A DNA stretch of 57,950 nucleotides from a virus: the IMG/VR virus record IMGVR_UViG_3300006852_000002, positions 1 through 57,950 of that record; one strand, given 5' to 3'. Of this stretch, positions 8,945 through 34,333 are shown in pieces. Under the pieces are notes generated by a model that was given only the letters and a program-made list of their open reading frames with translations, was not told the origin of the DNA and did no database searches. Positions within the stretch are counted from its first letter, which is position 1. Every line of letters starts with the position of its first letter. A program made the translations under genes and the position numbers.

Positions 8945-10065
8945 GATCCTTCGCCTTCCAACACCACTTTAACGTCGAATCCAGTCTCGCGATCATAGTC
9001 GAATTGATAAGCATTCAGACGACAATCAACTGAGTGTCCTCGGACTTGGGCCGTCACAAAGTCTCCGTATCCAACAGCCACACCCCAACGGTTCTTTAAG
9101 TCCCCGGCCAAGTTGCCGCGTATCTTAGTTCTACCTATTCGTCTGAATAGTTCCCCATTGGCCGCGTCAATTAAGTCCTGCGATACATCTAAATCAGGGG
9201 CGTCAAACCAGCCTTCGACTCGACCGATAGCCGACTGGTTCACGAGATCGCTTTCAACCTCTTCTATCAATCGAAGTAAATCATCTCCCTCGCCTCCGGC
9301 ATACAGATGAGTTTCTTCGTCTCGCCAGTCATCCTCAATCTCAGCGCTTTCCATATTCAAATAATCCGGGCCGATTAGAAGTGGATTCGATCCGCTTGGA
9401 AATCTACGATCTAATCCACGAGTCTCTTTGAACGTTTGAAATTCAAACGTAAAGGGTGGCTCGTTCGGTACATAGCTCTGTACTTGCGTAGAAACAACAT
9501 CGAATAGTATTGCAGTACCGGCTTGTTCAGATGCCAGAGCTATTTCTTTCAGAGTGGGCAATACATACCGCCAGGCAAATTCTCGTTCCAGAATTGGGCC
9601 AGCACTAACGTCGCTTTGAACAGATAGAATATCGGAAATATCTCGCGCAGCGATAGCAGAAGTTCCAAAGTTTTCTCTGACGATTGCTTTCATCATATCA
9701 TCAGCGGGATCAATCTTATCTGTCTCTGCTTCGCTGGCAAAATAAGCAATAATTCTTCGACGAAGTAGGCTAATGTTATCTTGAACATAAAGATCGTAAG
9801 TATCACCTTCCTTATTCATCGAAAGTTTTTTGCCCCTTAAAAACCAAACTGTTTGGCCTTCTAGAAACATATTCCCGCCTAGTACGGATCGTTCGATGGT
9901 GATAATCATATCTCGCACTAAACTGGAATATGGAATTTCACTGGACGATACTGTAATAATCCCTTCGCCAATATCTCCAACTCGACGAGCTAAAGTAACC
10001 TTGGATGGATTCAAGGTCTGTATTGCTACGCCCTGAGACGAATATAGCTTAGCAACTAAAGTCAT
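8941..10065 (-). CDS. Tail hub/baseplate protein (siphovirus Gp37-like)
   Basis: 374 residues. The N-terminal beta domain with GDIGEGIITVSSSE, then FLRGKKLSMNKEGDTYDLYVQDNISLLRRRII, and a C-terminal VGYGDFVTAQVRGHSVDCRLNAYQFDYDRETG resemble tail proteins annotated as virus ReqiPepy6 Gp37-like, which follow the distal tail protein. It probably forms the tail-tip hub beneath the tube. Start and stop overlap both neighbours by four bases. Confidence 0.6.
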   Translation of the reverse strand: MTLVAKLYSSQGVAIQTLNPSKVTLARRVGDIGEGIITVSSSEIPYSSLVRDMIITIERSVLGGNMFLEGQTVWFLRGKKLSMNKEGDTYDLYVQDNISLLRRRIIAYFASEAETDKIDPADDMMKAIVRENFGTSAIAARDISDILSVQSDVSAGPILEREFAWRYVLPTLKEIALASEQAGTAILFDVVSTQVQSYVPNEPPFTFEFQTFKETRGLDRRFPSGSNPLLIGPDYLNMESAEIEDDWRDEETHLYAGGEGDDLLRLIEEVESDLVNQSAIGRVEGWFDAPDLDVSQDLIDAANGELFRRIGRTKIRGNLAGDLKNRWGVAVGYGDFVTAQVRGHSVDCRLNAYQFDYDRETGFDVKVVLEGEGS

Positions 10066-12494
10066 GAACTTATCCCATTTAATAGCTCGCTCCAGTAGGC
10101 CCGAGCGGAGCTGCCAGAATCCGTGCCAGTTATTAGAACTGTGATGTTATTCTCTCCCGGTTGCAATAAAAATTCAGATAGGTTACTGCCCGGAATAACA
10201 GTACTCAAAAGATTGGGGCGGAAGTTAGACGAAAAGGAATTCATTCCTGGACGAATATCTAATACGGCAATCTCGCCGCTATTTAGTAAGAGATTGAAGA
10301 ATATACCTTTTCGAGTTGTATTGTTAATAACAGAATACAAACGACCGGGGCCGACAAAGATAAATTTAACGCTAGATGGAACCTCGGCATTATTTGTGAT
10401 AACAGTTAGGGCTTCGGCAACGGCGCTGCCTGAAGTATCGAATCCCAAAGCCAGTCGTCCATCAGGAGATTCTTTTACGTCATAGACAATGGCGCTACTC
10501 GGCAAGTTAATGCTCACTGGACGAAATGCAGTTCCATTCCAAACAGCTACGTGATCCGGCAGAGAGACGCCGCCCCATGAATCGAATGCCGATCCTGAAA
10601 TGAATAGATTTCCAATACTATCAACGCTTACCATGTAAAGAGCGCCCGCTTGATTTGATCGGGGTATAATTGTATTAAGCGAAAATCCATTCCATTCCTT
10701 TAGTTGCACTTCTCCAAGACCGGATATATCGCCAGTGTATAGGAGACCGTTAGACTTGGCTCGTATCTTTCCGATATTATCTGAAGTTAAACCAGACTGT
10801 AGTGGATTCCAATTCGTGCCGTCGTAAAAAGCAATACTGTTAGTGCCCACAATGCTATTCATTGTATTGAAGGAACCAACAGCATATATTTTTCCGTCTG
10901 GAGCAACACATCCGCCAAACACAAGACCGCTATTCGGAGTTCCGAACTGAGTCCACGAAACTCCATTAAACTTGTAAATACCGGAATCTCCAAAAGCAAT
11001 AATATTGCCGCTCTGATCGATGTCAATATCATAGACAACGCTCACCGATCCAAGCCCGGTTGCCATGGCTGACCAGATACCAGTAGCGATGTCGAATTTT
11101 GCGATATGGTTTACGGTAACTCCGTTGATTGCCACAAAGCCACCACCTGCGTATACAACGGTGCCCGGCCCGATGCGAAGAGATCGAACTTGACGGCTAG
11201 ATATAGAATCATCAGAAATAGATTCCCAAAGTTCTGAGATAAAATTATATCGAGCAATACCCCACGTATCTCCTACTCCGCCCATCTCAGTATAGTCCCC
11301 ACCTACGTATAACTTACCGTCTTGGCCCCACTGTATGGCTTTTACGGCTACTGTGCCTCCAGTGATGCCCGTTCCTAAAGCTCGCCAGTTTCCTTCTCGT
11401 TCCCGAACAATGATGCCGTCACTCTCGGCCACAGTCTCGGACATACTTAATACCGACCCGCTTTGCTTTTCAGAGTATGGGAATCCAATAGTACGAAATT
11501 GAATCGCTACATTTTCTTGAAGTAGGGATTCTATGTTCCCTTCAAGGCCGGTAACATATATACACGGAATGTAAATTGGATACTTTCCAGGAATGTTGGA
11601 ATGATAGACCAAAATCATCGGTTGGTCGGGAGATACCGCATCGTGTTTAATACGATTTATGAAAGACGATATTGAACCCCTAAGATTTGGATATGACAAT
11701 CCATTGAATTGGCCGGTGATGGTAAACTCACGGTTCAGTCGTAAAGTCTGTTGATAAATATCCGAGCCGTCACTTAGAGATATGATTTGATGTTGAATGG
11801 GTGCGGCAGTGAGTCCAACTAATCCGTTTATGTGGAAGTTGAACTCATCGAAGAAAACTTCTTTGCCTCCCGTACGAGAGAAAGAAGCTCTAAAAGATTG
11901 GGATTGATCTGGCAGGCCCAGCCACGAATGCCCAAAGCCTTGATCGCCGTCACAGTAGATAGTTGAATAAGCTTTGTTCTCAACCTGAACTGCATCGAAC
12001 AGAAAAGGAGCCACTGAAGCACTGTTATCTTTCGTAATATACAACCGACGAGTTGAAGCGCCTACAGTATCGTAGTGAGTTACTTCAATATGTTGCCAGG
12101 CTCCGTTTCCAGTGAAGCGAGTTTCCGTTCCAATCAAAGTTCCTGCAGATGTAGCGAAATAAATCTTATATGGAATTCCGGGCGCACCTTTGAACTTTAC
12201 CTGCGCCGTGTAGAAATTATTGATGGTTAAACTTAACGGAGTGTAGTAAACACCGTCGTTGACGGATGTGGTGGGTGTGTATTGGAAAGAGTATACGCCT
12301 TTATATTGATTGGTAGATACGCGAGTTAGAGTACCCGCCCCAGCAACCCAGGCGCTATTGGCAACTTCTGCCGATGGCTGAGTGATGAGGTTAGTTGTCT
12401 CTTCTGGCACGATAATAGAAATCTTACCTTGAGCGGGGAAGAGTTCTACATCTCGTACCACATCCGGGATCGCATTAAAATTTTGTAGTCTCAT
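10062..12494 (-). CDS. Distal tail protein with inserted beta-propeller
   Basis: 810 residues. The first 200 include a carbohydrate-binding-like jelly-roll (NLITQPSAEVANSAWVAGAGTL). Residues about 210-340 look like the N-terminal Dit-type tail ring domain. Residues about 360-680 hold repeated blades of the type LYVGGDYTEMGGV...IARYN, VYAGGGFVAINGV...IAKFD, IYAVGSFNTMNSI...IAFYDGTNW. This is a propeller built of roughly 40-residue units. The final 110 residues (LSEFLLQPGENNITVLITG) match Dit C-terminal domains. It is likely a ring at the tube end, with the propeller and jelly-roll exposed for glycan binding. Confidence 0.75.
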   Translation of the reverse strand: MRLQNFNAIPDVVRDVELFPAQGKISIIVPEETTNLITQPSAEVANSAWVAGAGTLTRVSTNQYKGVYSFQYTPTTSVNDGVYYTPLSLTINNFYTAQVKFKGAPGIPYKIYFATSAGTLIGTETRFTGNGAWQHIEVTHYDTVGASTRRLYITKDNSASVAPFLFDAVQVENKAYSTIYCDGDQGFGHSWLGLPDQSQSFRASFSRTGGKEVFFDEFNFHINGLVGLTAAPIQHQIISLSDGSDIYQQTLRLNREFTITGQFNGLSYPNLRGSISSFINRIKHDAVSPDQPMILVYHSNIPGKYPIYIPCIYVTGLEGNIESLLQENVAIQFRTIGFPYSEKQSGSVLSMSETVAESDGIIVREREGNWRALGTGITGGTVAVKAIQWGQDGKLYVGGDYTEMGGVGDTWGIARYNFISELWESISDDSISSRQVRSLRIGPGTVVYAGGGFVAINGVTVNHIAKFDIATGIWSAMATGLGSVSVVYDIDIDQSGNIIAFGDSGIYKFNGVSWTQFGTPNSGLVFGGCVAPDGKIYAVGSFNTMNSIVGTNSIAFYDGTNWNPLQSGLTSDNIGKIRAKSNGLLYTGDISGLGEVQLKEWNGFSLNTIIPRSNQAGALYMVSVDSIGNLFISGSAFDSWGGVSLPDHVAVWNGTAFRPVSINLPSSAIVYDVKESPDGRLALGFDTSGSAVAEALTVITNNAEVPSSVKFIFVGPGRLYSVINNTTRKGIFFNLLLNSGEIAVLDIRPGMNSFSSNFRPNLLSTVIPGSNLSEFLLQPGENNITVLITGTDSGSSARAYWSELLNGISS

Positions 12495-15400
12495 CGAGCT
12501 AACCTCATTACTCTAAAGTCCTGTTGAATCCCTTGCGAACTTCTATTGCTGTTCACGGTAAGATTTTGAACCAACTGATTATTGTTATTGACGGTATTCG
12601 TGTTGTAGGCCGTTTGAGATCCGGCAGGCGGGCTAACGATACTATTCACCATACCCGCTGCAGTTGCTTGGATTTCCATCTTCGGCATGAATGATAGAGC
12701 TTTAATACCTTGAGCCAGCCCGGCAGGAATAGTTTTACCAATTTTAGCGAACAGTTTTGATGGTGATGCGATGCCCAGCATTCGTTTGATGTTATTAACA
12801 GCGCTGTTGACCACCTCCCACAAAGCCCCGCCAATCATAAACGCAGCGCCCTTAATGCCGTCAATGATACCTCGGACGATATTCCAACCTACGCCAAAGA
12901 ACATCCAGCTCATATTACTAAGGGATCGGGCCGCTTGATCCAGGGCTTGAAAGAATCCACTACCAAGAACTGACCCTAAAATTCCGGCAATGTCTACTTG
13001 AGATCCAAGAGAGTACAGCGCTCCAGCTATAACGCTAGGTATGTTATTGAATACCGATCTTACTACATCCAGTAAAGACGAGAAAGCTCCGCCAATATCT
13101 CCACTCAACAAAGAATTTATTGCTGTAACTATCTTATCCTTTATTTCATTTACGACGGCCCAGAATGCCGGAATAAGTTGATCTAGATAGAATTTAGCGA
13201 TAGTGTAGGCGTCTTTAAATACACCTTCCCAAGTTCGGTAGACTTTACCGAGATCCACGCCTACAATGTTTGAAATCATTTGTAGCCATTTAACGATACT
13301 TACTAAAACATCGTTAATAACCTGAGTCATAGACTGTCGCAGATAAATCCATGCTTCATCCCATCGACCTTGAATCGCAAGCGACCAGAAATGGAAAGAT
13401 ATTTCCATGAGTTTCAACGACACGGAAATTATTCCAAGAACCAGATCCAAAGCCGTAATGAGTGTGGCTACGATAATCTTAAACGATATTTCGATGATCT
13501 TCTTTATAGTTTCCTGGTGCTCGCCCCAGATACTTGAAATACTATCCAGTGATGCTTTGACGCTGTTAGTCAGCTCAGGCGAAATTAAATTCCAGGAATC
13601 AACCGCGAATTGCCATACATTTTGAAAGGTCGGCATCAACCCGTTTATAAATTCCTGAATCTGTGCCCAGCGTAACTGAATAGCGTCAAAGAACCCACTC
13701 CAGGCTACTTTGACGTTTTCTATGTTAGCTGCCAATCCAGAGAATGTCTCAGACAGATTCCCAACGCCGCTAATATCCAATCCAGATAAATCAGTATCCG
13801 GCCATAGTGATCCAGTCTCACCAGCATCATCAGTCTTATCCTTTATTTGTTGCAGTAATCGAGCTTGCTCCTCAAATAAAGAATTCTGTTTTTGAATAGC
13901 TTCTAACTGAGACTGAGCTATGGCGAAGTTTTGTTGTGCCCAAGCGTACTGATTCTGTGCGTCCTCAAGTTGAGCACTAGCTCCGGCGATTGCTCCTTCG
14001 CGATTCTTAGTTAGCATTCGCTCTTGACGTTGTAACTGAATTTCACGCAGACGTTCAGCAGCGGCTTGCTTTCGGGCAGCTGAAGCGTGAGGATCATTCA
14101 AAATGCGTTGGATCTTCTTCAGTTCTTTTTCTTCATCTCGATATTGTCTGGCTTCACTAATTCCAGCCAACTCGCCTCTAACTGATTTTAGTCGGTCATC
14201 ATAGGCTTGAGTAATCCTATTCAGATTCTCTTGAGCCAAGGCGACCTGCTGCTGAGATTGCTGCAGCTGGGCATAAGATTGAATGTAATAACGAACGGCT
14301 CCGGCTGCCCCGCCGAGTTTGGATGTGATCGAATCTAACACTCCAGACGTAACTGAACCGAAAGTTCCAAGTTCATTGGAGAGCTGAAGAACTTGTTTAC
14401 GAATATCGTTGATAACTGGAATAAGAGAAATATCTTCGTCCTTACCGAATGACATACTTCGTAAGACATTTTCGATCTTATCGGATACATCGGCAAATAC
14501 TTTAGTAGCGCCTTCACTGGCAAATCCACCGAAGTAAATAGCGGCAGCTTCTTCGCCCCACTTGTCGAGATTAGGAGCAACCAGCGGCGGTGAACTAGGA
14601 CGTAGCCACTTAGTAAGAATTTTACCGACTTGAGAAATGAACCCTAAAATACCTTCGACGCCGCTTCGCAGACCGGCAGTGAAAGACATTACAAAACCTT
14701 CGCCCCAAGCAAAGGCTTTTGTGGCTAATTCGCCAAGTTGGATACCAATGCCCCGAATTCCGTTCAGGACGCTATCAGACGAAAGGAAATCAACTAAACG
14801 CTGTAGATAGGGTTGAAGCGCTCCCAAGATGCCCATGAGCTTCCCAGTCTCTTGGTTCATAGGGCCAAAGAACTCTCGCAGAAAACGAGGCATTAAATCT
14901 TGAATAGAGCTTAACAGTCCAGACAGGGTTCCGGCCTGAGCTTTAGCGGCATCCCCCCAATCCTTTTCCAGACTCTCCGTCAAAACCTTAATAGCGGCTC
15001 GGGCATTGATTGATCCATCTTGAAGCTTCTTACTAACTTCAGTCATGGTCATTCCAAGCCCCTTAGAGAGAATTTCTTTAACGTTAATGCCCACTTGAGC
15101 GAGCTGCATTATATCCTGGCCCAGAACCTTACCCGTTTGCCTCATCTGGCCCATCGCTAAGATAACTCGTTGGAGATCGTATCCGGCTTTACCGGTCGCC
15201 GCACCCCAATTGAGAATAGCCGATGAAACTCGCTTGGCTTCACTAACTAAGAAGCCATAGGACTTTGCCAGAAAGAAAGTTTGCTTAACGTCTTCTTCGC
15301 TAAACGGAGAAAGAATAGCTAAGTCTTCAATCCATTTAGTTAATTTCTGAGCCACTGGCCCGGCTTGAACCATAGCCGCATTCATACCTAACGTTGTATC

Positions 15401-16423
15401 TTTGGCTCTCATTTCCTGAGATACCATAGCCTTAAGAGCCGACACACCTCGTTCGTAATTAGCGACAACTCCCACAGCGGTCTGACCTAATTGAACTAAT
15501 GAATTAGTAAAAAATGAAACGGCATCAACGCCGAGCTTAGCTATGAAAGACGCAACATTGCCAATCAGAACTCCAATAGAAGTTGTGAGGATGCTACTCG
15601 CTCCAGCAGCTCCATGAAGCGAACCGGAGAAGCCCATGACTTTACCCTTGGCGGTGTCAGCGGCTTTCCCAGTCCTATCGATACTCTCCTCGGCCTTAGC
15701 AAACAGGGGCTTACCTGTAAACAACTTAGAAATATCATTGACGACTAAAACTACTCGATGGATAGATCGACGGCCACGCTCCATCGTCAATGTAACTCGA
15801 TTGAATACATTAACGAACTTCTCAACTTTACCGTAAGCTTCCTGAACTCCAGAGATAATGGATGCAAAAGTACCCGTTGGCTTAGTGGGTTGGTTATTAA
15901 CCTTACCATTCATCTGGTCTATTTTTTGATTTAGTTCAGCGATACGGGCGCTCTTAACTGCAATCTGAGCATTGACATACGCAAATCGTTGTTGCTCTTT
16001 TGACAGAGAACTTTCAGTAGCTTCAATCTTATCCTTCAATGTTTGCTGAGCTGGTATAAGTTGATTAAGCTGAAGTCGGTACCCGGCAGCACTTCGATTG
16101 TTTCCAATTTGCGATGCAGCGGCCATCTTTTGCTGGGCTACAGAAATTCTCTGGCCGAGAGCTTCATATTGAGCCTGAGCCTGTCCCACGGCCATGGCGT
16201 TATTTTTGATGCTAGTTGTTAAATTGTTCTGTTCCTGAGTTAACGCACTAAAGCGCGTCTGTGTGCTCAACAAACGCGCTTGAACTTTCCCCATTTCAAT
16301 TTGAAGACTAGACCCAGATTGCTGTAAATTATTAACGGATTGGGTCGCCGTCTTAGTGCCCTGTAAGAACGGATTAATATTAACGTTGCTGTACAGGACA
16401 GAAAATATAACAGGTTTCGCCAT
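12491..16423 (-). CDS. Tail tape measure protein
   Basis: 1310 residues. Coiled-coil N-terminus (QNNLTTSIKNNAMAVGQAQAQYEAL and following), central hydrophobic helices, a second coiled-coil region near residues 720-870, further membrane-like helices and the typical GIASPSKLFAKIGKTIPAGLAQGI block near the C-terminus. At about 1.5 angstrom per residue it would set a tail near 200 nm. The ATG lies two bases after the stop of the chaperone extension, the usual arrangement. Confidence 0.95.
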   Translation of the reverse strand: MAKPVIFSVLYSNVNINPFLQGTKTATQSVNNLQQSGSSLQIEMGKVQARLLSTQTRFSALTQEQNNLTTSIKNNAMAVGQAQAQYEALGQRISVAQQKMAAASQIGNNRSAAGYRLQLNQLIPAQQTLKDKIEATESSLSKEQQRFAYVNAQIAVKSARIAELNQKIDQMNGKVNNQPTKPTGTFASIISGVQEAYGKVEKFVNVFNRVTLTMERGRRSIHRVVLVVNDISKLFTGKPLFAKAEESIDRTGKAADTAKGKVMGFSGSLHGAAGASSILTTSIGVLIGNVASFIAKLGVDAVSFFTNSLVQLGQTAVGVVANYERGVSALKAMVSQEMRAKDTTLGMNAAMVQAGPVAQKLTKWIEDLAILSPFSEEDVKQTFFLAKSYGFLVSEAKRVSSAILNWGAATGKAGYDLQRVILAMGQMRQTGKVLGQDIMQLAQVGINVKEILSKGLGMTMTEVSKKLQDGSINARAAIKVLTESLEKDWGDAAKAQAGTLSGLLSSIQDLMPRFLREFFGPMNQETGKLMGILGALQPYLQRLVDFLSSDSVLNGIRGIGIQLGELATKAFAWGEGFVMSFTAGLRSGVEGILGFISQVGKILTKWLRPSSPPLVAPNLDKWGEEAAAIYFGGFASEGATKVFADVSDKIENVLRSMSFGKDEDISLIPVINDIRKQVLQLSNELGTFGSVTSGVLDSITSKLGGAAGAVRYYIQSYAQLQQSQQQVALAQENLNRITQAYDDRLKSVRGELAGISEARQYRDEEKELKKIQRILNDPHASAARKQAAAERLREIQLQRQERMLTKNREGAIAGASAQLEDAQNQYAWAQQNFAIAQSQLEAIQKQNSLFEEQARLLQQIKDKTDDAGETGSLWPDTDLSGLDISGVGNLSETFSGLAANIENVKVAWSGFFDAIQLRWAQIQEFINGLMPTFQNVWQFAVDSWNLISPELTNSVKASLDSISSIWGEHQETIKKIIEISFKIIVATLITALDLVLGIISVSLKLMEISFHFWSLAIQGRWDEAWIYLRQSMTQVINDVLVSIVKWLQMISNIVGVDLGKVYRTWEGVFKDAYTIAKFYLDQLIPAFWAVVNEIKDKIVTAINSLLSGDIGGAFSSLLDVVRSVFNNIPSVIAGALYSLGSQVDIAGILGSVLGSGFFQALDQAARSLSNMSWMFFGVGWNIVRGIIDGIKGAAFMIGGALWEVVNSAVNNIKRMLGIASPSKLFAKIGKTIPAGLAQGIKALSFMPKMEIQATAAGMVNSIVSPPAGSQTAYNTNTVNNNNQLVQNLTVNSNRSSQGIQQDFRVMRLAR

Positions 16424-17196: not shown

Positions 17197-18744
17197 TTAC
17201 AGCCGAGAGGCAACTCCAATTAGGAAGATGCCATCCGTTCCATCACCCGCTAGACCTGCTACGGCGACATTATTACCCGACACAGCCAGATCCGAAGATT
17301 TAGGAACTGCTAACCGACCAGCCTTGTCAAAGGTCGGAAGATTAGTTACACGCGGTCGGTCGTTCGCCCAATCCTGACCACCATTCCATGTTGCAAAGAT
17401 AACCGCCGTCGGGCCAGTAGCTCGATGAGAGAACCAACCCGTACCGTTATTTGCAAACACAATGTCATCAATCTGACCGCTGCCAGAACCGCTAAACGTA
17501 GTTTCAACCCACGATAGGCCGCCGTTACGAGTATAGACTACCCGGCCCAGATTTGTACCCACCCACCAAACTTTGTCGCTCAATACTGCCAGTGCTTGCA
17601 AGTCGGCTGCAATTGACGACGGAGAAGCTTGTGGGGTTGACCAGGAAGCTCCGCGATTCAAACTCACAGCCATATCACTATCTTTACCAACAGCGATAAT
17701 AGTTTCTCCGCTACCATGGATTCGCAGAAGATCCTGAGTCGTGACCGATCCATCATTCAACACAGTCACGCCAGCCGTGATGTTCGTGCTCTTGTAGATA
17801 TATCCACCAAGAGCTGAGAAGTAAACCTCACCAGGGCCAGCGACAAACACATCGGTCGGGCCTTTGGCTGCCACGAAACCAGATGTAACTTTCGTGAACG
17901 CTCCAGGAACCCCGAGGTCACTCAAAGTAGACCAGTAGTAAGCCGTTTCCGAAGAAACGCCAACAATGAGTCTATTGCCAACTACGTCAATGAAACTAGG
18001 CGTTGCATTAGCTCCAAGGCCGGTGATTGTTGCCTCGTGGATACTGGCTCCACCATCCAGCGTGTAAACTACTTCAGCCGGAAGACCAGGTGAACCCGCT
18101 CCCGAAGCAGCGGTGACGCCATAGATACGTTTCGTACCGTCATCGTCATCCCCGCAATCACCACACTGTTCTTTTGACCCGTAGGCCACATCCACTACTT
18201 CACGATCAATCTGACTTCCGCCAACGATACCAAAGACAACCGCTCCAATCGGATATACATCAGCCAATCGAAGGGTCAAAGAATCTTCAATATAGTTGTC
18301 ATCTGACCAGGCCGTGCGAGCACCCAAGTCTTTATCGGTTGTCAGAGCACCATCGTAGACCATCACATAATCCGACCAACCAAACAAGAAGTCAGATGGA
18401 TCTTTGCACTTCCCCGCCGGTTGATACAGATTAAATTGACAGCCTCGTTTAGCGAGTTGAAACGGAATTGGCCCGTGCTTTTCAAGAACTTTCAACGTAG
18501 CACTTGCCAGATCAGGCGGAGAAATCTTCCGACCAATCAGGCGATAACGTCCCACATTGTCAGGATCGTGAACATAGAACGGCTCAACCCCGCCCAACTC
18601 CGGCACACCCACACCTTCAATCACCATTAGCTGAGCGTCTTTACCTGCGTACTTTACCGGATTGCCGGGGAGAGCGCCGCCGAATTGAATAAAGGTACGA
18701 ATGTGACGATTATAAATTACGGTATCCGCATTAATGTCAGGCAT
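17197..18744 (-). CDS. Major tail tube protein with C-terminal Asp-box beta-propeller
   Basis: 515 residues from the ATG at 18744, which follows AGGAAAGGAATT. Nine codons further upstream lack a ribosome site. Residues 1 to about 205 (NADTVIYNRHIRTFIQFGG, then LRLADVYPIGAVVFGIV) form the tube domain. After an Asp-rich linker (CGDCGDDDDG), the rest has repeated Asp-box turns: TLDGGASIHEA, SLNRGASWSTP, TRNGGLSWVET, TWNGGQDWAND. This is a sialidase/sortilin-type propeller. One such domain per tube subunit would decorate the tail along its length. It sits in the standard tail tube position. Confidence 0.78.
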   Translation of the reverse strand: MPDINADTVIYNRHIRTFIQFGGALPGNPVKYAGKDAQLMVIEGVGVPELGGVEPFYVHDPDNVGRYRLIGRKISPPDLASATLKVLEKHGPIPFQLAKRGCQFNLYQPAGKCKDPSDFLFGWSDYVMVYDGALTTDKDLGARTAWSDDNYIEDSLTLRLADVYPIGAVVFGIVGGSQIDREVVDVAYGSKEQCGDCGDDDDGTKRIYGVTAASGAGSPGLPAEVVYTLDGGASIHEATITGLGANATPSFIDVVGNRLIVGVSSETAYYWSTLSDLGVPGAFTKVTSGFVAAKGPTDVFVAGPGEVYFSALGGYIYKSTNITAGVTVLNDGSVTTQDLLRIHGSGETIIAVGKDSDMAVSLNRGASWSTPQASPSSIAADLQALAVLSDKVWWVGTNLGRVVYTRNGGLSWVETTFSGSGSGQIDDIVFANNGTGWFSHRATGPTAVIFATWNGGQDWANDRPRVTNLPTFDKAGRLAVPKSSDLAVSGNNVAVAGLAGDGTDGIFLIGVASRL

Positions 18745-18760
18745 AAAAATAATTCCTTTC

Positions 18761-19984
18761 CTAGAATGCAAGCCCTCGCATGAGAGCCTTTTCTTTTACC
18801 CGTTGCCAGGCCCAGATGTGGCCGCGTTGCTTACCGAACGGATTATTCATATCATCCTTAGATACTTGAAACTGTTCGGTATTGCGACCCCCAGCTCTTG
18901 ATAAATCAAACTGCCAATAGTAAAAAATTCTATTGGCTTCTTCACATCCACACACCGGGCGACCTATCTCAGCAATCGCCATGTGCGTAATTGCTTGGCG
19001 TATATCATAGTCGATTTCGCCATTTTCGTCCAACGGCACGCCCGCCGAATAGCGCACCGTCACCTGATCTGGTTCTCGATAAAAGTTACAAAAATTCTCA
19101 GTCCAGATCCCATTTGCTTTAGTAGCAGCGGCTGGAACAACAAAACCAGTTTCAGCATTATGAATACCGGCTCTCGCAACGAGTTTTCCGATAGCCGCTG
19201 GATCTTTTGACACACTAAAAATATCAGTATTCCACAGAAGGGTTGCTTGAGAGTCGTCTACTGTCTCGCCCTCGGGATCGATACTTCGAGAAGAAATTAA
19301 AATTTTGGCGACAAAATTTGACGAGACAGTAGGATTAATATCTTTATTGGCCTTCATGCCTTCATATAGAATTGGCTTTATCAACATCCAAGATTTTCCA
19401 ACTACGGTTACAAGCCCGCCGGAAATGGAAACTTTAACGGGACTGATACGCCATCGTTTTCTATCCTTAGACCAATAGGGACGATCTGCTTCGATAAACT
19501 GAACGTATATTTTAGCTGGATTGGTTTCAGTGGTTGCCGCGATAGCGGTGAAAGTCTCATCCAGTCCATCGTTATCGTCGTCAGAAAATACAACGTTCTC
19601 TTCGTTAATATCAGTAAATTTCTCGACTCCTACAGCCAGAATTTTACCGAAAGTAGTTCTTACCGCAACTCGTTTTACATCTCCGCCAATTGGTAAACGC
19701 CGCCAGGCATTGTTATCGAAATAAGTAGGCCAGTCTATGGTTTCCTCCACATACATCGGAGCAACTGGATAGCCCAAGTAATCCATGATCTTCTTTTCGG
19801 ATCGCTCAATGGCCGAACGAATCTCAGCTCGACCGACGGCATAAATATCTTGCCAGCTATGTTCCCGCATCACTGTATTACAAGCGCTGGTTACCGGGGC
19901 GAGTTGAGTTTCAGACATTCCCCAGAAGTGATAGGGATTCCATCCAATCTGTTCCCGAAAAGTTTCTAGCGGCAAAAGGTTCAT
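18761..19984 (-). CDS. Head-tail connector / neck protein (putative)
   Basis: 407 residues between the neck genes and tail tube. The N-terminal third is helical (EIRSAIERSEKKIMDYLGYPVAP) as in head-tail adaptors. The central part contains a Ca-binding-like acidic turn (SDDDNDGLDE), and the C-terminal helix (DYDIRQAITHMAIAEIGRPVCGC) is also adaptor-like. The product name is inferred from position. The stop overlaps the leader of the tail tube gene. Confidence 0.55.
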   Translation of the reverse strand: MNLLPLETFREQIGWNPYHFWGMSETQLAPVTSACNTVMREHSWQDIYAVGRAEIRSAIERSEKKIMDYLGYPVAPMYVEETIDWPTYFDNNAWRRLPIGGDVKRVAVRTTFGKILAVGVEKFTDINEENVVFSDDDNDGLDETFTAIAATTETNPAKIYVQFIEADRPYWSKDRKRWRISPVKVSISGGLVTVVGKSWMLIKPILYEGMKANKDINPTVSSNFVAKILISSRSIDPEGETVDDSQATLLWNTDIFSVSKDPAAIGKLVARAGIHNAETGFVVPAAATKANGIWTENFCNFYREPDQVTVRYSAGVPLDENGEIDYDIRQAITHMAIAEIGRPVCGCEEANRIFYYWQFDLSRAGGRNTEQFQVSKDDMNNPFGKQRGHIWAWQRVKEKALMRGLAF

Positions 19985-20286
19985 AATTTATGTACCAGAA
20001 TAGCAGCTCCAGATAAAGCCGGGCCGTAGATAAGAACTTCCCAACTAAATCCGAAATGAATAAACGCTACCAGTAATCCGATCCAGAAAGATACACAGTA
20101 TAAGCATCGAATACCATCACCAATCCAATCATCTTCAAGAAACAGATTACTGAACCTAAGAAAAATATCAAAAGGCCCGCGTTCAGCCGTAATCATGTTT
20201 GAAATTCTAAATACGAAAAAAGCTTCAATTAGAAACTTTACTAGACTTTCCACGGCCTTGACCTTTCTTGGGTGCTGGGCTTTCAA
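19981..20286 (-). CDS. DUF1360-like membrane protein
   Basis: 101 residues. DWIGDGIRCLYCVSFWIGLLVAFIHFGF with its C-x-x-C before a membrane helix, then a second hydrophobic segment (YGPALSGAAILVHKL), matches the small DUF1360 family often found in phage neck clusters. The start overlaps the upstream frame by 62 nt; a second ATG (MITAERGPF) would reduce the overlap. Confidence 0.7.
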   Translation of the reverse strand: MKAQHPRKVKAVESLVKFLIEAFFVFRISNMITAERGPFDIFLRFSNLFLEDDWIGDGIRCLYCVSFWIGLLVAFIHFGFSWEVLIYGPALSGAAILVHKL

Positions 20287-20608
20287 CTACAACAGGGGCC
20301 GCAGCAGGAACTGGCTCGGTGACTTCTTCGACCTTTGCCGGTACAGGCGATTGTCGTTTTACTTCAGCCCACACGCCAAAGCTCTTAAGCCATTCCACGT
20401 CAATCGGATCGACATTTGCAAACTTGTCGTATGGGTTGTTGCCTCCACGATATACATGGCCGGAAGGTGAACGGCCCGGCCCGCCCCAAGGAATGCCGCC
20501 CCTTTGTGGGCCAGTGAACTGCATTCGCACTAACCCAGGATTATTTTCAGTAGCAGGGGTGGGAGCCTGCCGTAAAGCCATTTGACCACCACAACTTCCA
20601 CAAGCCAT
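20225..20608 (-). CDS. Possible separately translated neck/decoration protein from an internal start
   Basis: Within the large glycosyltransferase frame an ATG at 20608 is preceded by GGGAGG with nine bases of spacing. It would give a 127-residue protein: CGSCGG motif, a LVRMQFTGPQ-type strand, a segment SGHVYRGGNNPYDKFANVDPIDVEWLKSFG, then an Ala/Pro/Lys-rich tail. Small phage proteins near the head-tail joint have this YRGG...DVxWL layout. It may be made both as the fusion and alone. Alternatively a lost stop codon created the fusion. Confidence 0.6.
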   Translation of the reverse strand: MACGSCGGQMALRQAPTPATENNPGLVRMQFTGPQRGGIPWGGPGRSPSGHVYRGGNNPYDKFANVDPIDVEWLKSFGVWAEVKRQSPVPAKVEEVTEPVPAAAPVVVESPAPKKGQGRGKSSKVSN

Positions 20609-22897
20609 TTTATCAATCCTCCCGATACTATTTTCGTATTTTTCGTGAATTTTTGCAATAGTCAGCTTTCTCGGCTTATTTGACCGAGTTCTGGCTGATA
20701 ATCTGACGAATAATAGGGACTTTGGATACCGAAGGCCAAAACAATTGTTCAAGGCACATCGAATATAAAAATCCCAATCTTCCATAAGCTCTAAATCTTC
20801 GTCGAACAATACTTTCCTAGCTATTTTAGTCGGCACTAAGCAAGTCACTGGATGGGGGATTTCATTAGCTAATATATCTAAATCATAATTTGGAGTTTCA
20901 GTTATTTTGTTGCCCTCAATCGTACTCCAGTCAGAGTAGATATAATTCTCTGGATTGGCTTTGGCGGCGATTAGCATTGACTCGATAGTTTCTGGATGAA
21001 TATAGTCGTCAGCATCCAGGAATAACACATAGTCAGATTTAGCTTTATTAATTCCCAAGTTACGAGCCGCACCTGATCCAGATTCATTGGAGTTAATAAT
21101 TTCAATAAATGGATATTTATCCAAAAGCTCTCCAGTCCATTTACTGTCTTTAGCGTCATTAACAACAATCAGTTCCCAATTTCTAAATGATTGACCGACT
21201 ACGCTTTCAATAGCCGTCTCAACAAACTTTGTATGTCTAGCGGCGACCGGAATAATCACGCTGACTTCTGGAAAGTCGTGCGATAAGACGACGGGCATTG
21301 ACTCACATGGAGCAGCGATAGGATAAACTCCATCTCGAATGAACGGTAGCCAAGTATCGATACGATGATATGGCTTCGTTCGACTAGCTCCGTTAGGATG
21401 TAGACGATACACGAACAACGGATCATTCACAACTCGTTTAGCAGTAAATCCTAAACTCAGTCCACGAACCCAGAACTCTACATCTTCGGCTGGATGAAAT
21501 TGCTGACGGTATCCACCGGCCCGTTTCCACATTTTCTTACGAAACATTGCCGCACATGGAATACAATTTGCCGGTGGATTGGATAGCTTAGTCATCACTG
21601 ACCAGTTAAATTCCGGCGGCCAGGTTGTTCGTCCAGTTTCTTCGTCTTTAAGTAAAAGCAATCCAGTATAAGCTACTCCAAGGTCTGGATTATCTTTCAT
21701 TTCACTCAAAAGAATCTCAGCGTACTTCTCATGAATTTGATCGTCGGCATCCAAACAGATAATAAAGTCGCCTTTAGCGGCAACAATTCCGTTATTACGG
21801 GCACCGGCAACACCGGAATTTTCTTGATAAATAATTTTTACTTTAGGATTACTCTTGTGCTTATTGATGACTTTTTTACTGTTATCTGTTGAACCATCAT
21901 CCACAATAATCACTTCGTCTACAACAGATTGATCGAGGGCGCTTTGAATGGCATCCTCGATATATTTTTCGTAGTTATAGTTAGTAATAACGATACTAAC
22001 TCCACTCTCGTCTGGGATTGTGCTGACTTTATTATACAGATTAGCATACTTCTGCATAACAATCGGCCAATCGTATCGCTCAGCCTTCGCTCGGGCGGCT
22101 TTACTGGTTTCTTCCCAATGTTCAATTAGCCATTCATATCCTTCGAGTAGTTCGTCGTAATCGTAAGGCTCCACTAAATAACCGTCAACCTTATGAGTAA
22201 CAATATCTAACGTACCACCCCAAGCAAATCCAAGAACGGGTACTTCGGAAGCCATTGCTTCAAGAGTACCTACGCCAAAAGTTTCTTGAGTTAAGGCCAG
22301 GTAAATTTCTGCATTACGAATCAACTCTTTCATTTCATCATGCGGCATCTTCCCAGTAACGATGAAATTATCCAGAGCCGGACGATCTTCTGGAGCAAAA
22401 GTTGAGATAACTCTTACACCTCGTTGAGCTAATTCCCAAGCGTGAACTGGATTGCATACATCTTCTCTACGATTCTTATTCCACAGAGCGTAGTTTTTAG
22501 TTTCTCCGGGCGACCATTCAGATACATCAATCCCGTGCCCAATAATTTCGGGAACGATTCGCATATCATATTGAAAAGGTCGTTGAACCCAACGCGACGG
22601 CACCGTAATCGACTTAGCTCGACGAGCAGCGCTCATAATTCGTTGATTAGCTGTATTGTGCCAAGCTGAATACTTACCAGAATTTGGATCTCCCGTCCAG
22701 TAAATTCCATGACAGTGAAGCACATCCACTCGGGGAAGCTGAGCCTGTTGTGTATGAGCTGCGATTACATCAGCCGATGCTGGGCCGGTTAGTTCAATTC
22801 CCATTTTAGGGAGATGATTGTATTGAGCCAGAATAATACGACCGATTCCATTATCGCTGCCGATTTCCTGCGGAGTCGGCCAGATGTGTACTTTCAT
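20225..22897 (-). CDS. Three-domain glycosyltransferase (GT4-GT2-GT2) fused to a neck-type tail
   Basis: 890 residues. Residues 1-290 are a GT4/GT-B enzyme with the ETFGVGTLEAMASEVPVLGF acid-x7-acid block. Residues about 300-540 are a GT2 domain (SIVITNYNYEKY, IIVDDGSTD, ICLDADDQ). Residues about 545-750 are a second GT2 domain (SVIIPVAARH, LFLDADDYIHPETIES). The last 127 residues (MACGSCGGQMALRQ, then a Gly/Pro segment and an Ala/Pro/Lys-rich tail) are unlike a glycosyltransferase and look like a small neck protein. They have their own start and ribosome site. The gene lies among virion genes, so virion glycosylation is the likely task. Sugar and acceptor are unknown. Confidence 0.82.
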   Translation of the reverse strand: MKVHIWPTPQEIGSDNGIGRIILAQYNHLPKMGIELTGPASADVIAAHTQQAQLPRVDVLHCHGIYWTGDPNSGKYSAWHNTANQRIMSAARRAKSITVPSRWVQRPFQYDMRIVPEIIGHGIDVSEWSPGETKNYALWNKNRREDVCNPVHAWELAQRGVRVISTFAPEDRPALDNFIVTGKMPHDEMKELIRNAEIYLALTQETFGVGTLEAMASEVPVLGFAWGGTLDIVTHKVDGYLVEPYDYDELLEGYEWLIEHWEETSKAARAKAERYDWPIVMQKYANLYNKVSTIPDESGVSIVITNYNYEKYIEDAIQSALDQSVVDEVIIVDDGSTDNSKKVINKHKSNPKVKIIYQENSGVAGARNNGIVAAKGDFIICLDADDQIHEKYAEILLSEMKDNPDLGVAYTGLLLLKDEETGRTTWPPEFNWSVMTKLSNPPANCIPCAAMFRKKMWKRAGGYRQQFHPAEDVEFWVRGLSLGFTAKRVVNDPLFVYRLHPNGASRTKPYHRIDTWLPFIRDGVYPIAAPCESMPVVLSHDFPEVSVIIPVAARHTKFVETAIESVVGQSFRNWELIVVNDAKDSKWTGELLDKYPFIEIINSNESGSGAARNLGINKAKSDYVLFLDADDYIHPETIESMLIAAKANPENYIYSDWSTIEGNKITETPNYDLDILANEIPHPVTCLVPTKIARKVLFDEDLELMEDWDFYIRCALNNCFGLRYPKSLLFVRLSARTRSNKPRKLTIAKIHEKYENSIGRIDKMACGSCGGQMALRQAPTPATENNPGLVRMQFTGPQRGGIPWGGPGRSPSGHVYRGGNNPYDKFANVDPIDVEWLKSFGVWAEVKRQSPVPAKVEEVTEPVPAAAPVVVESPAPKKGQGRGKSSKVSN

Positions 22898-23568
22898 TAC
22901 AGTCCTTTCATTTGCCAGCTATCACCAACGTGATGCCAGATGGTATCGTCATAAGTAAGCGGAACAGCCACCATAGGCGGATCTTGAAGTGATACAGAAA
23001 TATCACGACATTGATGACAAAATCCCTCTTCAGTAAGTCCCAACTTTAAGTTTTCTGGATAAAGGCCAAAATTCTCGTGGAAGCGAACATGCTTGATATG
23101 GGGCCTGTTAGATGTAATATACAGACACATCGGCCCACTGCTATCCCACTTCACAACCCAATATTTTTCAATTAGGTCAGCGGTATATCCGTGGCCCTCA
23201 ACACCCATTAAACGAATCCACTTCACCCGTTCATCTTTGATAACTTTTTCTACGTGATCGTCAACCTTTAACTTTTCCATCAACCAGTGATCGTCGTCCA
23301 TTTGCATTACGATTGGACTGTATTTAAATGCTGAATATAGAAGATGGTTTAAATTATTTCCAAGATTAGAAACTGGCGGCTTTAGAAGAATAGCGTCTGG
23401 ATGAACTTCACTCAGCAAACTCTCAGTATCGTCTTGTCCGGCCACGCCAACCATAAATTGAATCTTGCCACTGTATTCAATATTCTCTTTCAACAGAGTA
23501 ATAGTCTGACTAACGAGACGCGATCTGTCAAAAGTTGGAATGATGATATTTAAAGTGGGTAAGCTCAT
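22897..23568 (-). CDS. GT2-like glycosyltransferase
   Basis: 223 residues. TLNIIIPTFDRSRLVSQTITLL is a GT-A Rossmann start and VMQMDDDHWLMEKL near residue 90 is a DxD metal/nucleotide-sugar site. Short for the family but complete in its core. It overlaps the large glycosyltransferase start by one base and the following gene by four, so the three cassette genes are coupled. Confidence 0.8.
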   Translation of the reverse strand: MSLPTLNIIIPTFDRSRLVSQTITLLKENIEYSGKIQFMVGVAGQDDTESLLSEVHPDAILLKPPVSNLGNNLNHLLYSAFKYSPIVMQMDDDHWLMEKLKVDDHVEKVIKDERVKWIRLMGVEGHGYTADLIEKYWVVKWDSSGPMCLYITSNRPHIKHVRFHENFGLYPENLKLGLTEEGFCHQCRDISVSLQDPPMVAVPLTYDDTIWHHVGDSWQMKGL

Positions 23569-24080
23569 AGTCGTCTAAATGTCCGAATGGAATCGATGAC
23601 TGGAAGTTCAATCCATTTATCCCTATTCAGACTATACCATCTTGAGATTTCTTCGTTGACTTCGGGGCAAATTTTATGGGGCGTTAGGGGAGCATCCCAG
23701 GAATAGCAATCGTGAAAGGCAGCGTGGCCGCCAACTTTTACGAAATTAGTATAGGCTAAATCTTTTTTAATAATGGAACGAGTGTGCCCACCGTCAATAA
23801 ATAGCAGAGAAATTCTTTTCTTCCATTCAGCTGCTAAAGCAGTACTATCTCGTTGAATAAAGTTGAAGTTTGTATATTTATGGTCGGTGAATTTTAACGG
23901 ATCAATGTCTACACCGATTACTCTAGCCGATTTGTTGCCTTCGCAGAAACATACAATCGAAGCTCCGTACTCCACGCCAACATTAAAGATAAGTTGTTTT
24001 GGTTTTACGGATTGAGCTAAGATAAAAAGCCAGTTTCTTTCTTTATCCGTAAGCCACCCCCTGGCTGTCATGTGATCCAT
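23565..24080 (-). CDS. Class I SAM methyltransferase-like / cephalosporin hydroxylase-like protein
   Basis: 171 residues. IFNVGVEYGASIVCFCEG (SAM-loop region), ARVIGVDID, LLFIDGGHTRSIIKKDLAYTNFVKVGGHAAFHDCYSW give the GxxxG loop, acidic strand and terminal HDC motif shared by small sugar O-methyltransferases and cephalosporin hydroxylase-type proteins. In phage and bacterial glycan clusters such genes usually modify the attached sugar. First gene of the cassette after the capsid terminator. Confidence 0.7.
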   Translation of the reverse strand: MDHMTARGWLTDKERNWLFILAQSVKPKQLIFNVGVEYGASIVCFCEGNKSARVIGVDIDPLKFTDHKYTNFNFIQRDSTALAAEWKKRISLLFIDGGHTRSIIKKDLAYTNFVKVGGHAAFHDCYSWDAPLTPHKICPEVNEEISRWYSLNRDKWIELPVIDSIRTFRRL

Positions 24081-24142: not shown

Positions 24143-25627
24143 TTAGTCGCTAACGCCGGAGTCATTGGGCGGGTTAAACGAAGGCCCAAAGCCCACGTAG
24201 TCAGTCCGACCACCATTAACGTAGAATGACGAGTTCGTATCCCACGAGCGTTCGTGCTTGAGCGGCGTGTATTTCACGTTATCAAGTCGAGCCGCAAGAT
24301 GGGGCGTCAAAAGCAACAAACGCCATTCAGTCTTGACCAGAACTTCTACGCAGAAGTTATTCGGGGGTTTCTTGTGCCACATAAACCGCCCGCCATCACT
24401 GGTGAAGAAGAATCCACCCGTCCCAACGATGGGAGCCAGTTCAGCTGCAGCAGCCATTGCCCCACCGGGGGCGTCGTAGTTGATGTGCTCGATCAAAGTC
24501 ACAGGCGTCCCACCGAGAACGGTGTAAGGGATGAAGTACATATTGGCGGAGAATGATTCACCGGGCAATACGGTTTCACGAACTTCATCATCCAGGACAA
24601 CTGGAACTTGAGCACCGTCAATCCACAGGAATTGACCAGTGCGGTTATACATATCACCCCGCATAGAATTCGTCAATTCATTCAGATAGCGACGATCATT
24701 GATGAACCGCTCACGACTGGTATCACCTTCGGCCACACACCGATACGTTTCGTATGCACAAGGCCAGATAGCCGTGACCTCGTAAAACATCGCAGCAGGC
24801 ATTGAGATTTTCCAGAAAACGGGATTCAACCGAGTCTGGGTAGCAATGTGCCGCAACCGTCGCATGATGTTAGTAATCGTGCGAACTAGAGTCGTACCGT
24901 TAGTATCAATCGCCTTATTGCCAAAATCCACAACGATTGAATCTGCAGCGGGACAGAGTTGCTTGGTGATTGCGTCTTGATACCCTGTATTAATCAGAAT
25001 ATCAAAACCAAACGGAAACTTACGTCCACCCTGAGCGCTGTTATTGGCAGGATTGCCTTCATAAACATCGAAGGCCTGATCCCGAACAATAGACACACCC
25101 AATTCAAACAAAGCTTTAGCGGCTTCCGCAACTAAAGGATTCTGTTTGGTAGGGGCGGGGGCACCAGGATGATCCAAACCACCCAACAGGCGAAGGTCGG
25201 TGAACTCACCCCGATTGGTCATCACGCCCGAGCGATCAATGTCAATCACCCGTGAACGGCGAGAGAAACGACCAAACACAAAAGTGTGGGTACAAAGCTT
25301 TGACAGACCCGCATAAGGCGGATCATCGCACACCCCAACCGGCTCAGATCCAGTTGAAGGCGTCACCCCTGTTAACAATCCATACAGCGGATTTGCGTCC
25401 ATTGAAGGACGTGCCGGTAGTTCCGCTAACACGCCGGTCTGGGGTAAAATCATCGCAGAGAAAAGTGCATTTGAAAGACCGGCTTGTGAGAAAAGGCCAC
25501 CGGGGCCATGCCCATAAGAAAAGTTGGGCGTGGACGACGGAAAACCCTTATACCCAACGCCGCGTTCTTTCAACGCAAGTTGTCGCTGGACGAGTTTATC
25601 CACGATAACATCATAATCTAGTTCCAT
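24143..25627 (-). CDS. Major capsid protein (HK97-fold, putative)
   Basis: 494 residues in the expected place: directly after scaffold, after portal and protease-region genes, followed by a strong terminator. A long helical segment (NPLVAEAAKALFELGVSIVRDQAFDVYEG) corresponds to the spine helix region and strand-rich A-domain-like segments follow. Codon and base use look more G+C-rich than neighbours, as in highly expressed genes. Sequence alone does not prove the fold; the assignment rests on synteny and size. Confidence 0.85.
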   Translation of the reverse strand: MELDYDVIVDKLVQRQLALKERGVGYKGFPSSTPNFSYGHGPGGLFSQAGLSNALFSAMILPQTGVLAELPARPSMDANPLYGLLTGVTPSTGSEPVGVCDDPPYAGLSKLCTHTFVFGRFSRRSRVIDIDRSGVMTNRGEFTDLRLLGGLDHPGAPAPTKQNPLVAEAAKALFELGVSIVRDQAFDVYEGNPANNSAQGGRKFPFGFDILINTGYQDAITKQLCPAADSIVVDFGNKAIDTNGTTLVRTITNIMRRLRHIATQTRLNPVFWKISMPAAMFYEVTAIWPCAYETYRCVAEGDTSRERFINDRRYLNELTNSMRGDMYNRTGQFLWIDGAQVPVVLDDEVRETVLPGESFSANMYFIPYTVLGGTPVTLIEHINYDAPGGAMAAAAELAPIVGTGGFFFTSDGGRFMWHKKPPNNFCVEVLVKTEWRLLLLTPHLAARLDNVKYTPLKHERSWDTNSSFYVNGGRTDYVGFGPSFNPPNDSGVSD

Positions 25628-30222: not shown

Positions 30223-31749
30223 TTATTCCTCGTATACCCCAATGTTTAATCGCATAGCTTCGGCGGTCGCCATTGAAGTTGATACCGCTAAATCTATCTT
30301 TAGTAATTCAGCTCGCTTTACAATACGCATTTTCTCGTTGTCAGTTTGAGCGTTAGAATTTGAAATATGGGCATTCAGCACCGGATCATCGCGATGCACA
30401 ATTGATCGTTCTCGAATCTTATCGTACAGAAGCTTATCGGCCACCAGACGATCCGAGGCTTGCGAGAATACGTTGAACCAACCTAAGCCGTCGTCACGCA
30501 GCCGAGTTGCCATATCGTGCAATTGAAATTGATCGTAAGCCCATTCAACAACATTGTATTTATCTGCTAAAGCTCGTATTTCCATCTCCGGGCCTTTAAA
30601 ATCTATCTTTCCACCTTGGGGCGGATACCAGGCCCGCGAGTAGAATACGTAAACTTTATTTCCTCTGCGGTAGACTCCTACCAAACCAAAACAGTCTGAC
30701 GAAACTCCGGCATCTAGGGCAAATACCACCGGCTCATCGGGTAACGGATCAGAGAAAGATCCTTCGCAAGCTTCCCACCATTCATCAGGCACGAACTTCT
30801 GGCTTGAGGTAACCCACTGATTACGGTGGATACGTAAAAACTCATGCGGGGGAATGACGGCAGCCTCTTGAGCATAGTAATCGGCTGTTTGCCAGGGAAG
30901 TCTAGGTTCGGTATTCCACAGAACGAATAGACGAGCCGGATCGTTGACGTAAGTTTCAATATGACTTAGATCGTGAAATACGCCGTCGTCTCCGGTATAA
31001 GAAACATTGATTCGACGACCTTGTTTAACACCTTGGTCGTACAGTTGCTCAAGTAGTGGAGACTCGCCAGAATAACCGGCATAGGTTTCTACCCATCGCT
31101 GTGAGTATCCGTACTTATTAGGCGGCAGGGTCATCTCCACCCACATTCGCTGCTGGGCTTCCTGGTGGGCACCCCACAACTCGCTGAATACAATAAAATC
31201 GGCATTCGATCCAGCTTCGCCGGTCGGGTCAATGGCTACACTTTCAATGATGGTTCGATTAGGAAGCTCTACTCGATAGTTACGAAATCTAACAAGTGGC
31301 TTTATTTTCTGATTTAGCTCGATAGATCGACGCAGATAGTAACCGACTCGGCTATCGGCTTGCTTCAAGTCATTAGCGACCGTGATAATAGAACCCCATT
31401 GAAGGCCCCAGGCTCGCCAGAGACACATTGCAGCCGCAATAGTGCTTTTGATTGATTTCTTTATATCTGACCACACAATCGTCGAATATTTAAATCGCCC
31501 AGATCCATCCCGAGCGGTGGCTTCTTTCATGGCTCCGATCTGATAGGGATCTAACTGCAACGGCCCATTCTTAAGTTCAGGAACAAAGAAATTATTCGTA
31601 ATCCATCTCACTGGATCGGGATCATACATCACCAGACCCTTCTGGGCAGCGACTTGTTGGGCGCGTTGTTTGAATAGCTCGATCTTCCCAGCGTCGGTCA
31701 GAGACGATAGAAACTCACGAGTGATTGGATTACGAATTTCTTCGGTCAT
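30223..31749 (-). CDS. terL: Terminase large subunit
   Basis: 508 residues. The ATPase half has a deviant Walker A at SDIKKSIKSTIAAA, residues about 95-110, and a Walker B strand ADFIVFSELWGA near residue 180. The C-terminal half has nuclease strands VVFALDAGVSSDCFGLVGVY (first metal Asp) and EWAYDQFQLHDMATRL, consistent with an RNase H-fold nuclease. It cuts and translocates DNA into the prohead. The stop is two bases before the portal start. Confidence 0.92.
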   Translation of the reverse strand: MTEEIRNPITREFLSSLTDAGKIELFKQRAQQVAAQKGLVMYDPDPVRWITNNFFVPELKNGPLQLDPYQIGAMKEATARDGSGRFKYSTIVWSDIKKSIKSTIAAAMCLWRAWGLQWGSIITVANDLKQADSRVGYYLRRSIELNQKIKPLVRFRNYRVELPNRTIIESVAIDPTGEAGSNADFIVFSELWGAHQEAQQRMWVEMTLPPNKYGYSQRWVETYAGYSGESPLLEQLYDQGVKQGRRINVSYTGDDGVFHDLSHIETYVNDPARLFVLWNTEPRLPWQTADYYAQEAAVIPPHEFLRIHRNQWVTSSQKFVPDEWWEACEGSFSDPLPDEPVVFALDAGVSSDCFGLVGVYRRGNKVYVFYSRAWYPPQGGKIDFKGPEMEIRALADKYNVVEWAYDQFQLHDMATRLRDDGLGWFNVFSQASDRLVADKLLYDKIRERSIVHRDDPVLNAHISNSNAQTDNEKMRIVKRAELLKIDLAVSTSMATAEAMRLNIGVYEE

Positions 31750-34211: not shown

Positions 34212-34333
34212 TATTGACCTCCCGAGATTGCGTATAGAAGTACAGCCGCCATTACGCAAATTAACATGATTGCAATCACTATCAAAGTAACTCCCATTTC
34301 GGCATCGTGCTTTCTAGGTTTTTGACTTTTCAT
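34211..34333 (-). CDS. 40-residue single-span membrane peptide, holin candidate
   Basis: MKSQKPRKHDAEMGVT is a positively charged N-terminus, then a hydrophobic span of about 20 residues (LIVIAIMLICVMAAVLLYAI) and a short SGGQ tail. The stop TAA overlaps the lysin ATG by one base, and the start lies inside the end of the small terminase gene after GGGGGTTGAAA. Coupling with the lysin suggests a holin or pinholin-like role. The size is within the range of known phage mini-membrane proteins. Confidence 0.7.
   Translation of the reverse strand: MKSQKPRKHDAEMGVTLIVIAIMLICVMAAVLLYAISGGQ

Follow-up and report, generated by a model that had tools for sequence, protein, structure and literature searches.

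The locus described here lies within a window of 57,950 bases (the whole stretch of DNA analysed, from IMG/VR), in which a virion block runs along the minus strand between about 36 kb and 7 kb. The terminase (30223-31749), the tape measure (12491-16423), and a Sipho_Gp37-like tail protein (8941-10065) are all encoded in this block, as are the capsid, sugar-enzyme, and flanking genes considered below, which share the same strand. An 837-aa ORF with a GH25 lysozyme domain at residues 321-490 (31746-34259) separates the terminase from a ParB/DNA-methylase fusion, while a DNA methylase gene (N6_N4_Mtase; 2686-3500), whose 187-aa ORF covers just the profile's C-terminal half, is possibly split or frameshifted. 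No tRNA genes were found in the window.

The product of the gene at 24143-25627 (494 aa), which is the next gene upstream of the methyltransferase gene at 23565-24080, has no sequence match in Pfam, PHROG, or the GenBank phages. It is identified as the major capsid protein (MCP) by its AlphaFold model (pLDDT 82), which matches the HK97-fold capsids. Foldseek lists 251 hits at E ≤ 1e-3 (probability 1.00, best E 3.6e-9), and almost every one of the first 50 bears the name of a capsid or an encapsulin. The protein is conserved across 32 aligned sequences, and its gene forms the left anchor of the insertion site discussed below.

On the right flank, a core virion-block protein of 407 aa (18761-19984) and the gene at 17197-18771, both of which are conserved in the family, are located before the tape measure. 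Neither has a convincing Pfam or PHROG family match, and the 407-aa protein has no convincing sequence relative in the PDB. The sequence-only reading had placed the sugar enzymes between capsid and neck genes; the capsid side of this claim is borne out by the HK97 fold, whereas the label “neck” is a guess, given that the two conserved proteins match no convincing family. Between the 407-aa gene and the sugar enzymes lies a gene for a small, DUF1360-like membrane protein of 101 aa (19981-20286), recognized by synteny, a Pfam DUF1360 match below the cut-off, phrog_781 (E 5e-5), and a single hydrophobic segment, the true start of which is probably downstream of the listed TTG. This gene is near-constant in the virion block, and comes after the C-terminal domain described below (CT), even in the relatives that have no glycosyltransferase (GT).

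The first of the sugar enzymes is a class I methyltransferase of 171 aa (23565-24080), which matches Methyltransf_24 (E 2e-10; score 41.8 bits, cut-off 26.3), with RMNT_CmcI below its own cut-off, and likely tailors either a sugar or the acceptor. It is followed by a GT2-like glycosyltransferase of 223 aa (22897-23568), whose Glycos_transf_2 match (E 8e-4; score 19.7 bits, cut-off 23.3) is weak when taken alone. The three genes of the cassette overlap by 4 bases (23565-23568) and by 1 base (22897), and the coupling by overlaps of 1-4 bases, the methyltransferase gene, the further GT2-like enzyme, and the three glycosyltransferase domains in one protein, as originally read from the sequence, are all recovered here, the GT2-like enzyme with a score below the Pfam cut-off.

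The third gene (20225-22897) encodes a protein of 890 aa with the architecture GT4-GT2-GT2-CT. Pfam recognizes Glycos_transf_1 (PF00534) at residues 175-270 (E 2e-18) and two stretches of Glycos_transf_2 (PF00535; E 7e-59 in all), both above the cut-off, the best of the two stretches at 301-456 and the second at approximately 543-700 by motif, with the GT domains ending near residue 757. The near-invariant catalytic-site residues in 24 aligned family members include E205/E213, which form the EX7E motif of the GT4 domain, D334, D383/D385, and E471/D472 of the first GT2 domain, and D581, D628/D630, and E706 of the second. The EX7E and DXD/ED residues are retained in 23-24 of the 24 rows, with the exception of D707, which is D in 18 rows and E in six. 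Identity with the protein of the window is 41-47% over the full length in the 15 nearest aligned relatives, and 32-36% in the other eight. This transferase looks soluble, as no membrane (hydrophobic) segment was detected in 37 of the 41 GT-CT proteins, that of the window among them, the remaining four having a single marginal segment. The idea of three GT domains in one ordinary protein is incomplete, in that the last 127 aa represent a separable domain with its own start, and the “three or four sugars” proposed for the locus are a count of the domains only.

A shared gene order

Pattern and tblastn searches with alignments recovered 27 capsid loci and 43 GT loci in IMG/VR, and a search of bacterial and archaeal genome contigs with the GT alignment added 16 loci, four of which (L076-L079) carry both GT and CT. 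The MCP alignment found no relative in the bacterial and archaeal genomes, and the terminase found none in viral_contigs; its 111 relatives in the GenBank phages are distant. Two near-identical phage contigs (L076 and L077) were assigned to bins from different phyla, one a proteobacterial and the other a Gemmatimonadetes MAG; host labels taken from bins are considered unreliable here, and no host is claimed.

An HMM map of all the loci revealed a prevailing order of MCP, variable genes, GT-CT, the DUF1360-like gene, the 407-aa gene, and the 524-aa gene, with extra genes among the last of these in some loci. Of 49 relative loci, 48 have the GT gene downstream of the MCP gene and in the same orientation, 44 of them within the locus itself, and four of the other five by a search of the whole record, the fifth (L048) being a 26 kb record with no capsid gene. 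The conservation of the GT protein over its full length, at the same place in dozens of contigs, indicates that the cassette is not a product of chance. In the MCP tree, the 51 rows comprise 44 fused genes, one separate, two with CT alone, and four unlabelled, one of which (L029) was later found to be fused. The states require three changes in this tree, and the fusion is found on both sides of the midpoint split.

The nested gene at the end of the transferase

The C-terminal domain of the fusion, CT (127 aa, 20225-20608), is nested in frame within the transferase gene, with an internal ATG at 20608-20606. It begins with MACGSCGG, and its predicted model comprises this N-terminal Cys motif, a small beta domain spanning residues 27-82, and a tail without order, with a pLDDT of over 90 in the 10-residue blocks from 31 to 80. 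The CT profile has no sequence relative in the PDB, the CT protein of L052 has no match in the GenBank phages at E values of up to 10, and a Foldseek search of the PDB and BFVD with the CT model returned no hit below 0.001.

The domain also stands alone. In two relatives (L031 and L025), CT directly follows the MCP gene, with no GT or sugar genes between them, and is followed by the DUF1360-like, 407-aa, and 524-aa genes, with other ORFs interspersed among these genes in L025, whereas two genes and the GT part of the fusion stand between MCP and CT in the window. In L064, an ORF judged HNH-like by eye stands between the separate ORFs of GT and CT, while in L063 and L066, the GT ends at a stop and a new ORF opens with the Cys motif, CT being assigned in these two by its place and Cys motif only, as the CT profile had no hit there. 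CT is thus a small core gene, whose original place was probably directly after the capsid gene, the order seen in L031 and L025. An additional, stand-alone CT copy of 76 aa is present in L015 and L036, located in the latter at 12688-12918, directly after the fused CT.

Small genes just after the major capsid gene are also found in lambda (FI) and Bacillus (yqbF), and CT occupies this position in L031 and L025 and may weakly resemble their products in fold. The CT model aligns with YqbF (2hjq) over 47 residues (VIA Z 4.6, rmsd 2.2) and with the C-terminal domain of lambda gpFI (2lsm) over 51 residues (VIA Z 3.5, rmsd 6.3), matches that fall short of any safe threshold, and at Z values below 8, both may reflect no more than a common arrangement; the B-domains of GINS score as well as, or above, YqbF and gpFI in the same comparison. 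Unlike these proteins, CT opens with a Cys motif and forms part of a GT fusion, and it has no sequence relation to them in the profile search of the PDB. Lambda gpFI is described as bound to the capsid lattice of the prohead (PMC4856287).

The internal ATG of CT is preceded, at a distance of nine bases, by the Shine-Dalgarno (SD) site GGGAGG (20618-20623, minus strand), with an anti-SD energy of -10.3, which ranks at 0.009 among the codon positions of the gene (p 0.004 by synonymous resampling). Each of four aligned relatives also has a Met before the Cys motif and a purine-rich site ahead of this Met. The analysis was extended to 41 fused genes, from which the near-identical loci L045, L049, L072, and L077 had been dropped, with the start being selected by a rule blind to the upstream site, that is, the last ATG, or otherwise GTG or TTG, at most six codons before the Cys pair. 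In two of the 41 (L071 and L076), the rule hit a wrong, earlier Cys pair, and the start was set by hand at the CT motif. A start codon was present at CT in all 41 genes (36 ATG, four GTG, and one TTG).

The mean anti-SD energy at this start was -9.95, in comparison with -3.49 over the same genes and -7.18 under synonymous resampling. When a single gene was taken from each 60%-identity cluster (n = 37), the values were -9.96 and -7.15, respectively (paired Wilcoxon p 1e-10), and 35 of the 37 clusters were at -7 or below, as against 10.5% of 27,189 internal codon positions; combined p-values of this type are rough, as the sequences share ancestry. At the true gene starts, the means are -9.1 for the capsid, -7.8 for the 407-aa, and -8.7 for the 524-aa gene, so the CT start is of like strength. 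Taken singly, only six of the 41 internal starts beat synonymous resampling at 0.05. A further eight fused genes, held out from this analysis, all have the start (seven ATG and one TTG), with energies of -6.4 to -10.2, but only two of them beat resampling at 0.05 (L017 at 0.047 and L024 at 0.008), while the site in L020 is unremarkable (rank 0.205). An in-frame internal start with a ribosome-binding site was thus found in 41 of 41 and in eight of eight fused genes. The possibility that the internal site is a by-product of linkers rich in Gly, Glu, Lys, and Arg was rejected, given that the resampled value of -7.15 accounts for part, although not all, of the -9.96 observed.

Since CT retains a start codon and a ribosome-binding site of its own, the gene should give rise to both a large GT-CT protein and the free CT, and it is very probable that CT is also translated alone. 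In lambda, the protease C is read in frame into the scaffold Nu3, which is also made alone from an internal start. The nested architecture would be the same here, although the enzyme is a multi-domain glycosyltransferase, rather than a protease.

The site between the capsid gene and the transferase

The interval between the MCP and GT genes ranges from 0.6 kb (L042) to approximately 20 kb (L038, from the coordinates). A total of 121 ORFs from these intervals were scanned with Pfam, two from the window and 119 of the 224 listed for the relatives, with the other 105 being mostly short ORFs, or from near-duplicate loci, loci with no MCP in reach, and some of the large intervals. The families recorded in these 121 ORFs were Glycos_transf_2 (21), Epimerase (13), RmlD (12), Methyltransf_24 (11), GDP_Man_Dehyd (10), DegT (9), Polysacc_synt_2 (6), and Sulfotransfer_1 (6), among others, and these families overlap on the same proteins. 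As judged by this content, the stretch from MCP to GT-CT serves the whole family as a site where variable sugar genes are inserted.

Two loci (L020 and L021) whose shared DNA is 89-93% identical differ at this site, the former having an additional cassette of approximately 5.6 kb, which encodes two GT2 enzymes, a C-methyltransferase, and three ORFs with no Pfam match; a Polysacc_synt_2 gene further upstream in L020 is likewise missing from L021. The methyltransferase and GT2 pair of the window recurs as a single fused ORF in L068 and L073, and in the same order in L047, so the cassette of the window is a recognizable, small version of the exchangeable module. In other loci, such as L042, L052, L067, and L071, a homologue of the GT2-like gene is the only gene between MCP and GT-CT. 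An attempt to count the families of the GT2-like and methyltransferase proteins by iterated HMMs was set aside, as the former became too broad (from 21 to 107 members in three rounds). Base composition was not used to identify the cassette as a recent foreign insertion, as its GC content of 0.40-0.45 differs only weakly from the 0.43-0.50 of the surrounding DNA.

A possible docking role and its alternatives

The reading preferred here, which is considered somewhat probable, is that of a swappable module for the glycosylation of the virion, in which CT, a domain that would also be made free, attaches the core transferase to the particle during assembly. In these uncultured, siphovirus-like phages, variable sugar-tailoring genes are inserted between the capsid gene and CT, and the one constant enzyme is an apparently soluble transferase, with two or three catalytic domains in most members, read in frame into CT. 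Internal initiation would provide free CT beside the large GT-CT protein, whose CT part would dock the transferase on the assembling head, and the capsid, or a neighboring virion protein, would then receive a short glycan. In the window, the second GT2 enzyme would extend this glycan, and the methyltransferase would methylate it.

Docking on the particle is suggested by the fusion of the transferase to a core domain of the virion block, one that is also found by itself beside the capsid gene, and given that the fold match of CT is weak, it is mostly gene position that points to this step. A short, decorated glycan would fit the proximity of the sugar-nucleotide enzymes and the methyl- and sulfotransferases to the transferase. 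The putative self-decoration of the virion, whether of capsid or of tail, proposed in the sequence-only reading is the interpretation best supported by the location, CT, the apparently soluble transferase, and the adjacent sugar genes. A stronger version, in which a single gene provides both a docking protein and the same protein with two or three GT domains riding on the particle, a self-guided machine whose exchange slot would allow the coat to change quickly, is more tentative.

The virion may be glycosylated without any role of the fusion in targeting, although this seems rather unlikely. The early loss of a stop codon would have joined two adjacent genes, with the internal start keeping CT expressed. 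This start alone would meet the need for CT, the fusion is old and spread over the MCP tree, and there is no sequence conservation in the linkers that immediately precede CT, all of which would be compatible with such a passive origin. A single mutation could restore the stop, however, yet 49 fused genes (41 plus the eight held out) were found, in comparison with three genomes with separate ORFs, and in L024, all but the last GT domain has been shed, while the fusion of this domain to CT has been kept.

It is less likely still that the enzymes modify the surface of the host, whether the O-antigen or some other glycan, blocking superinfection or aiding release, as in the serotype conversion by GtrABC. 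The GT2 catalytic domains do resemble GtrB profiles, with their best PHROG matches being labelled GtrB-like O-antigen conversion, and the DegT, epimerase, and Polysacc_synt_2 genes present in the cassettes are typical of surface-glycan loci. The GtrB match spans the catalytic domain only (300-405), however, the transferase of the window has no membrane anchor, and no GtrA was found by Pfam among the 40 window proteins scanned. The location also differs from that of the GtrABC system, and such a role is also at odds with the strict placement of the gene after that of the capsid and with the joining of its product to a core protein of the virion block. The glycosylation of hypermodified phage DNA, for which phage GTs exist (Pyle 2024, as cited in PMC12619734), is very improbable, as a Pfam scan of 40 window proteins, from the larger ORFs, turned up no base kinase, hydroxymethylase, or thymidylate-synthase-like enzyme, and the GTs lie in the virion block, away from the replication genes, with one of them fused to a protein of this block.

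The targeted glycosylation of the virion would have its closest functional parallel in the mycobacteriophages (Che8 and others; Freeman et al. 2023), in which glycans are described on the capsid and tail-tube subunits of phages that encode glycosyltransferases (PMC11256854, PMC12619734). In one of these phages, Maravista (F1), the GT genes are said to lie close to the genome's 3' end (PMC11256854). The transferase is phage-encoded and free of a membrane anchor here, although the GTs lie between the capsid gene and CT, in an exchangeable module, and are joined to a protein of the virion block that has a nested start. A search of open full texts with a limited set of terms found no paper on a phage glycosyltransferase with an internal start or a fusion to a structural protein. 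Given this, and the virion glycosylation already reported in the mycobacteriophages, the class of function is known, while the joining of GT to CT around a conserved nested start appears to be new.

The choice of target may be written into the gene itself, through the fusion of the transferase to a putative particle-associated domain that would also be expressed free. To our knowledge, the glycosylation of phage virions has been shown in few systems, and we know of no rule for its targeting. If the docking reading is correct, the combination of a fixed docking part with swappable sugar enzymes would offer a means of testing how phages vary their coats, and for what reason, as well as a natural tool for directing glycosyltransferases to protein shells. 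The conserved small gene found behind the capsid gene, CT, also gains a place in a large and almost unannotated family of phages.

In-frame stops occur within the capsid match of the L063 record (G004; a TAA, 10276-11595) and within the GT match of the L079 record (G006 contig 149; a TAG, 12856-13761), and may reflect gene decay, errors, or a different genetic code. In two loci, L033 (3924-5633), which is on the same contig as L028, and L023 (9902-11632), two ORFs approximately 0.2 kb apart make up the capsid gene, which looks as though a small insertion or an intron-like element had divided it.
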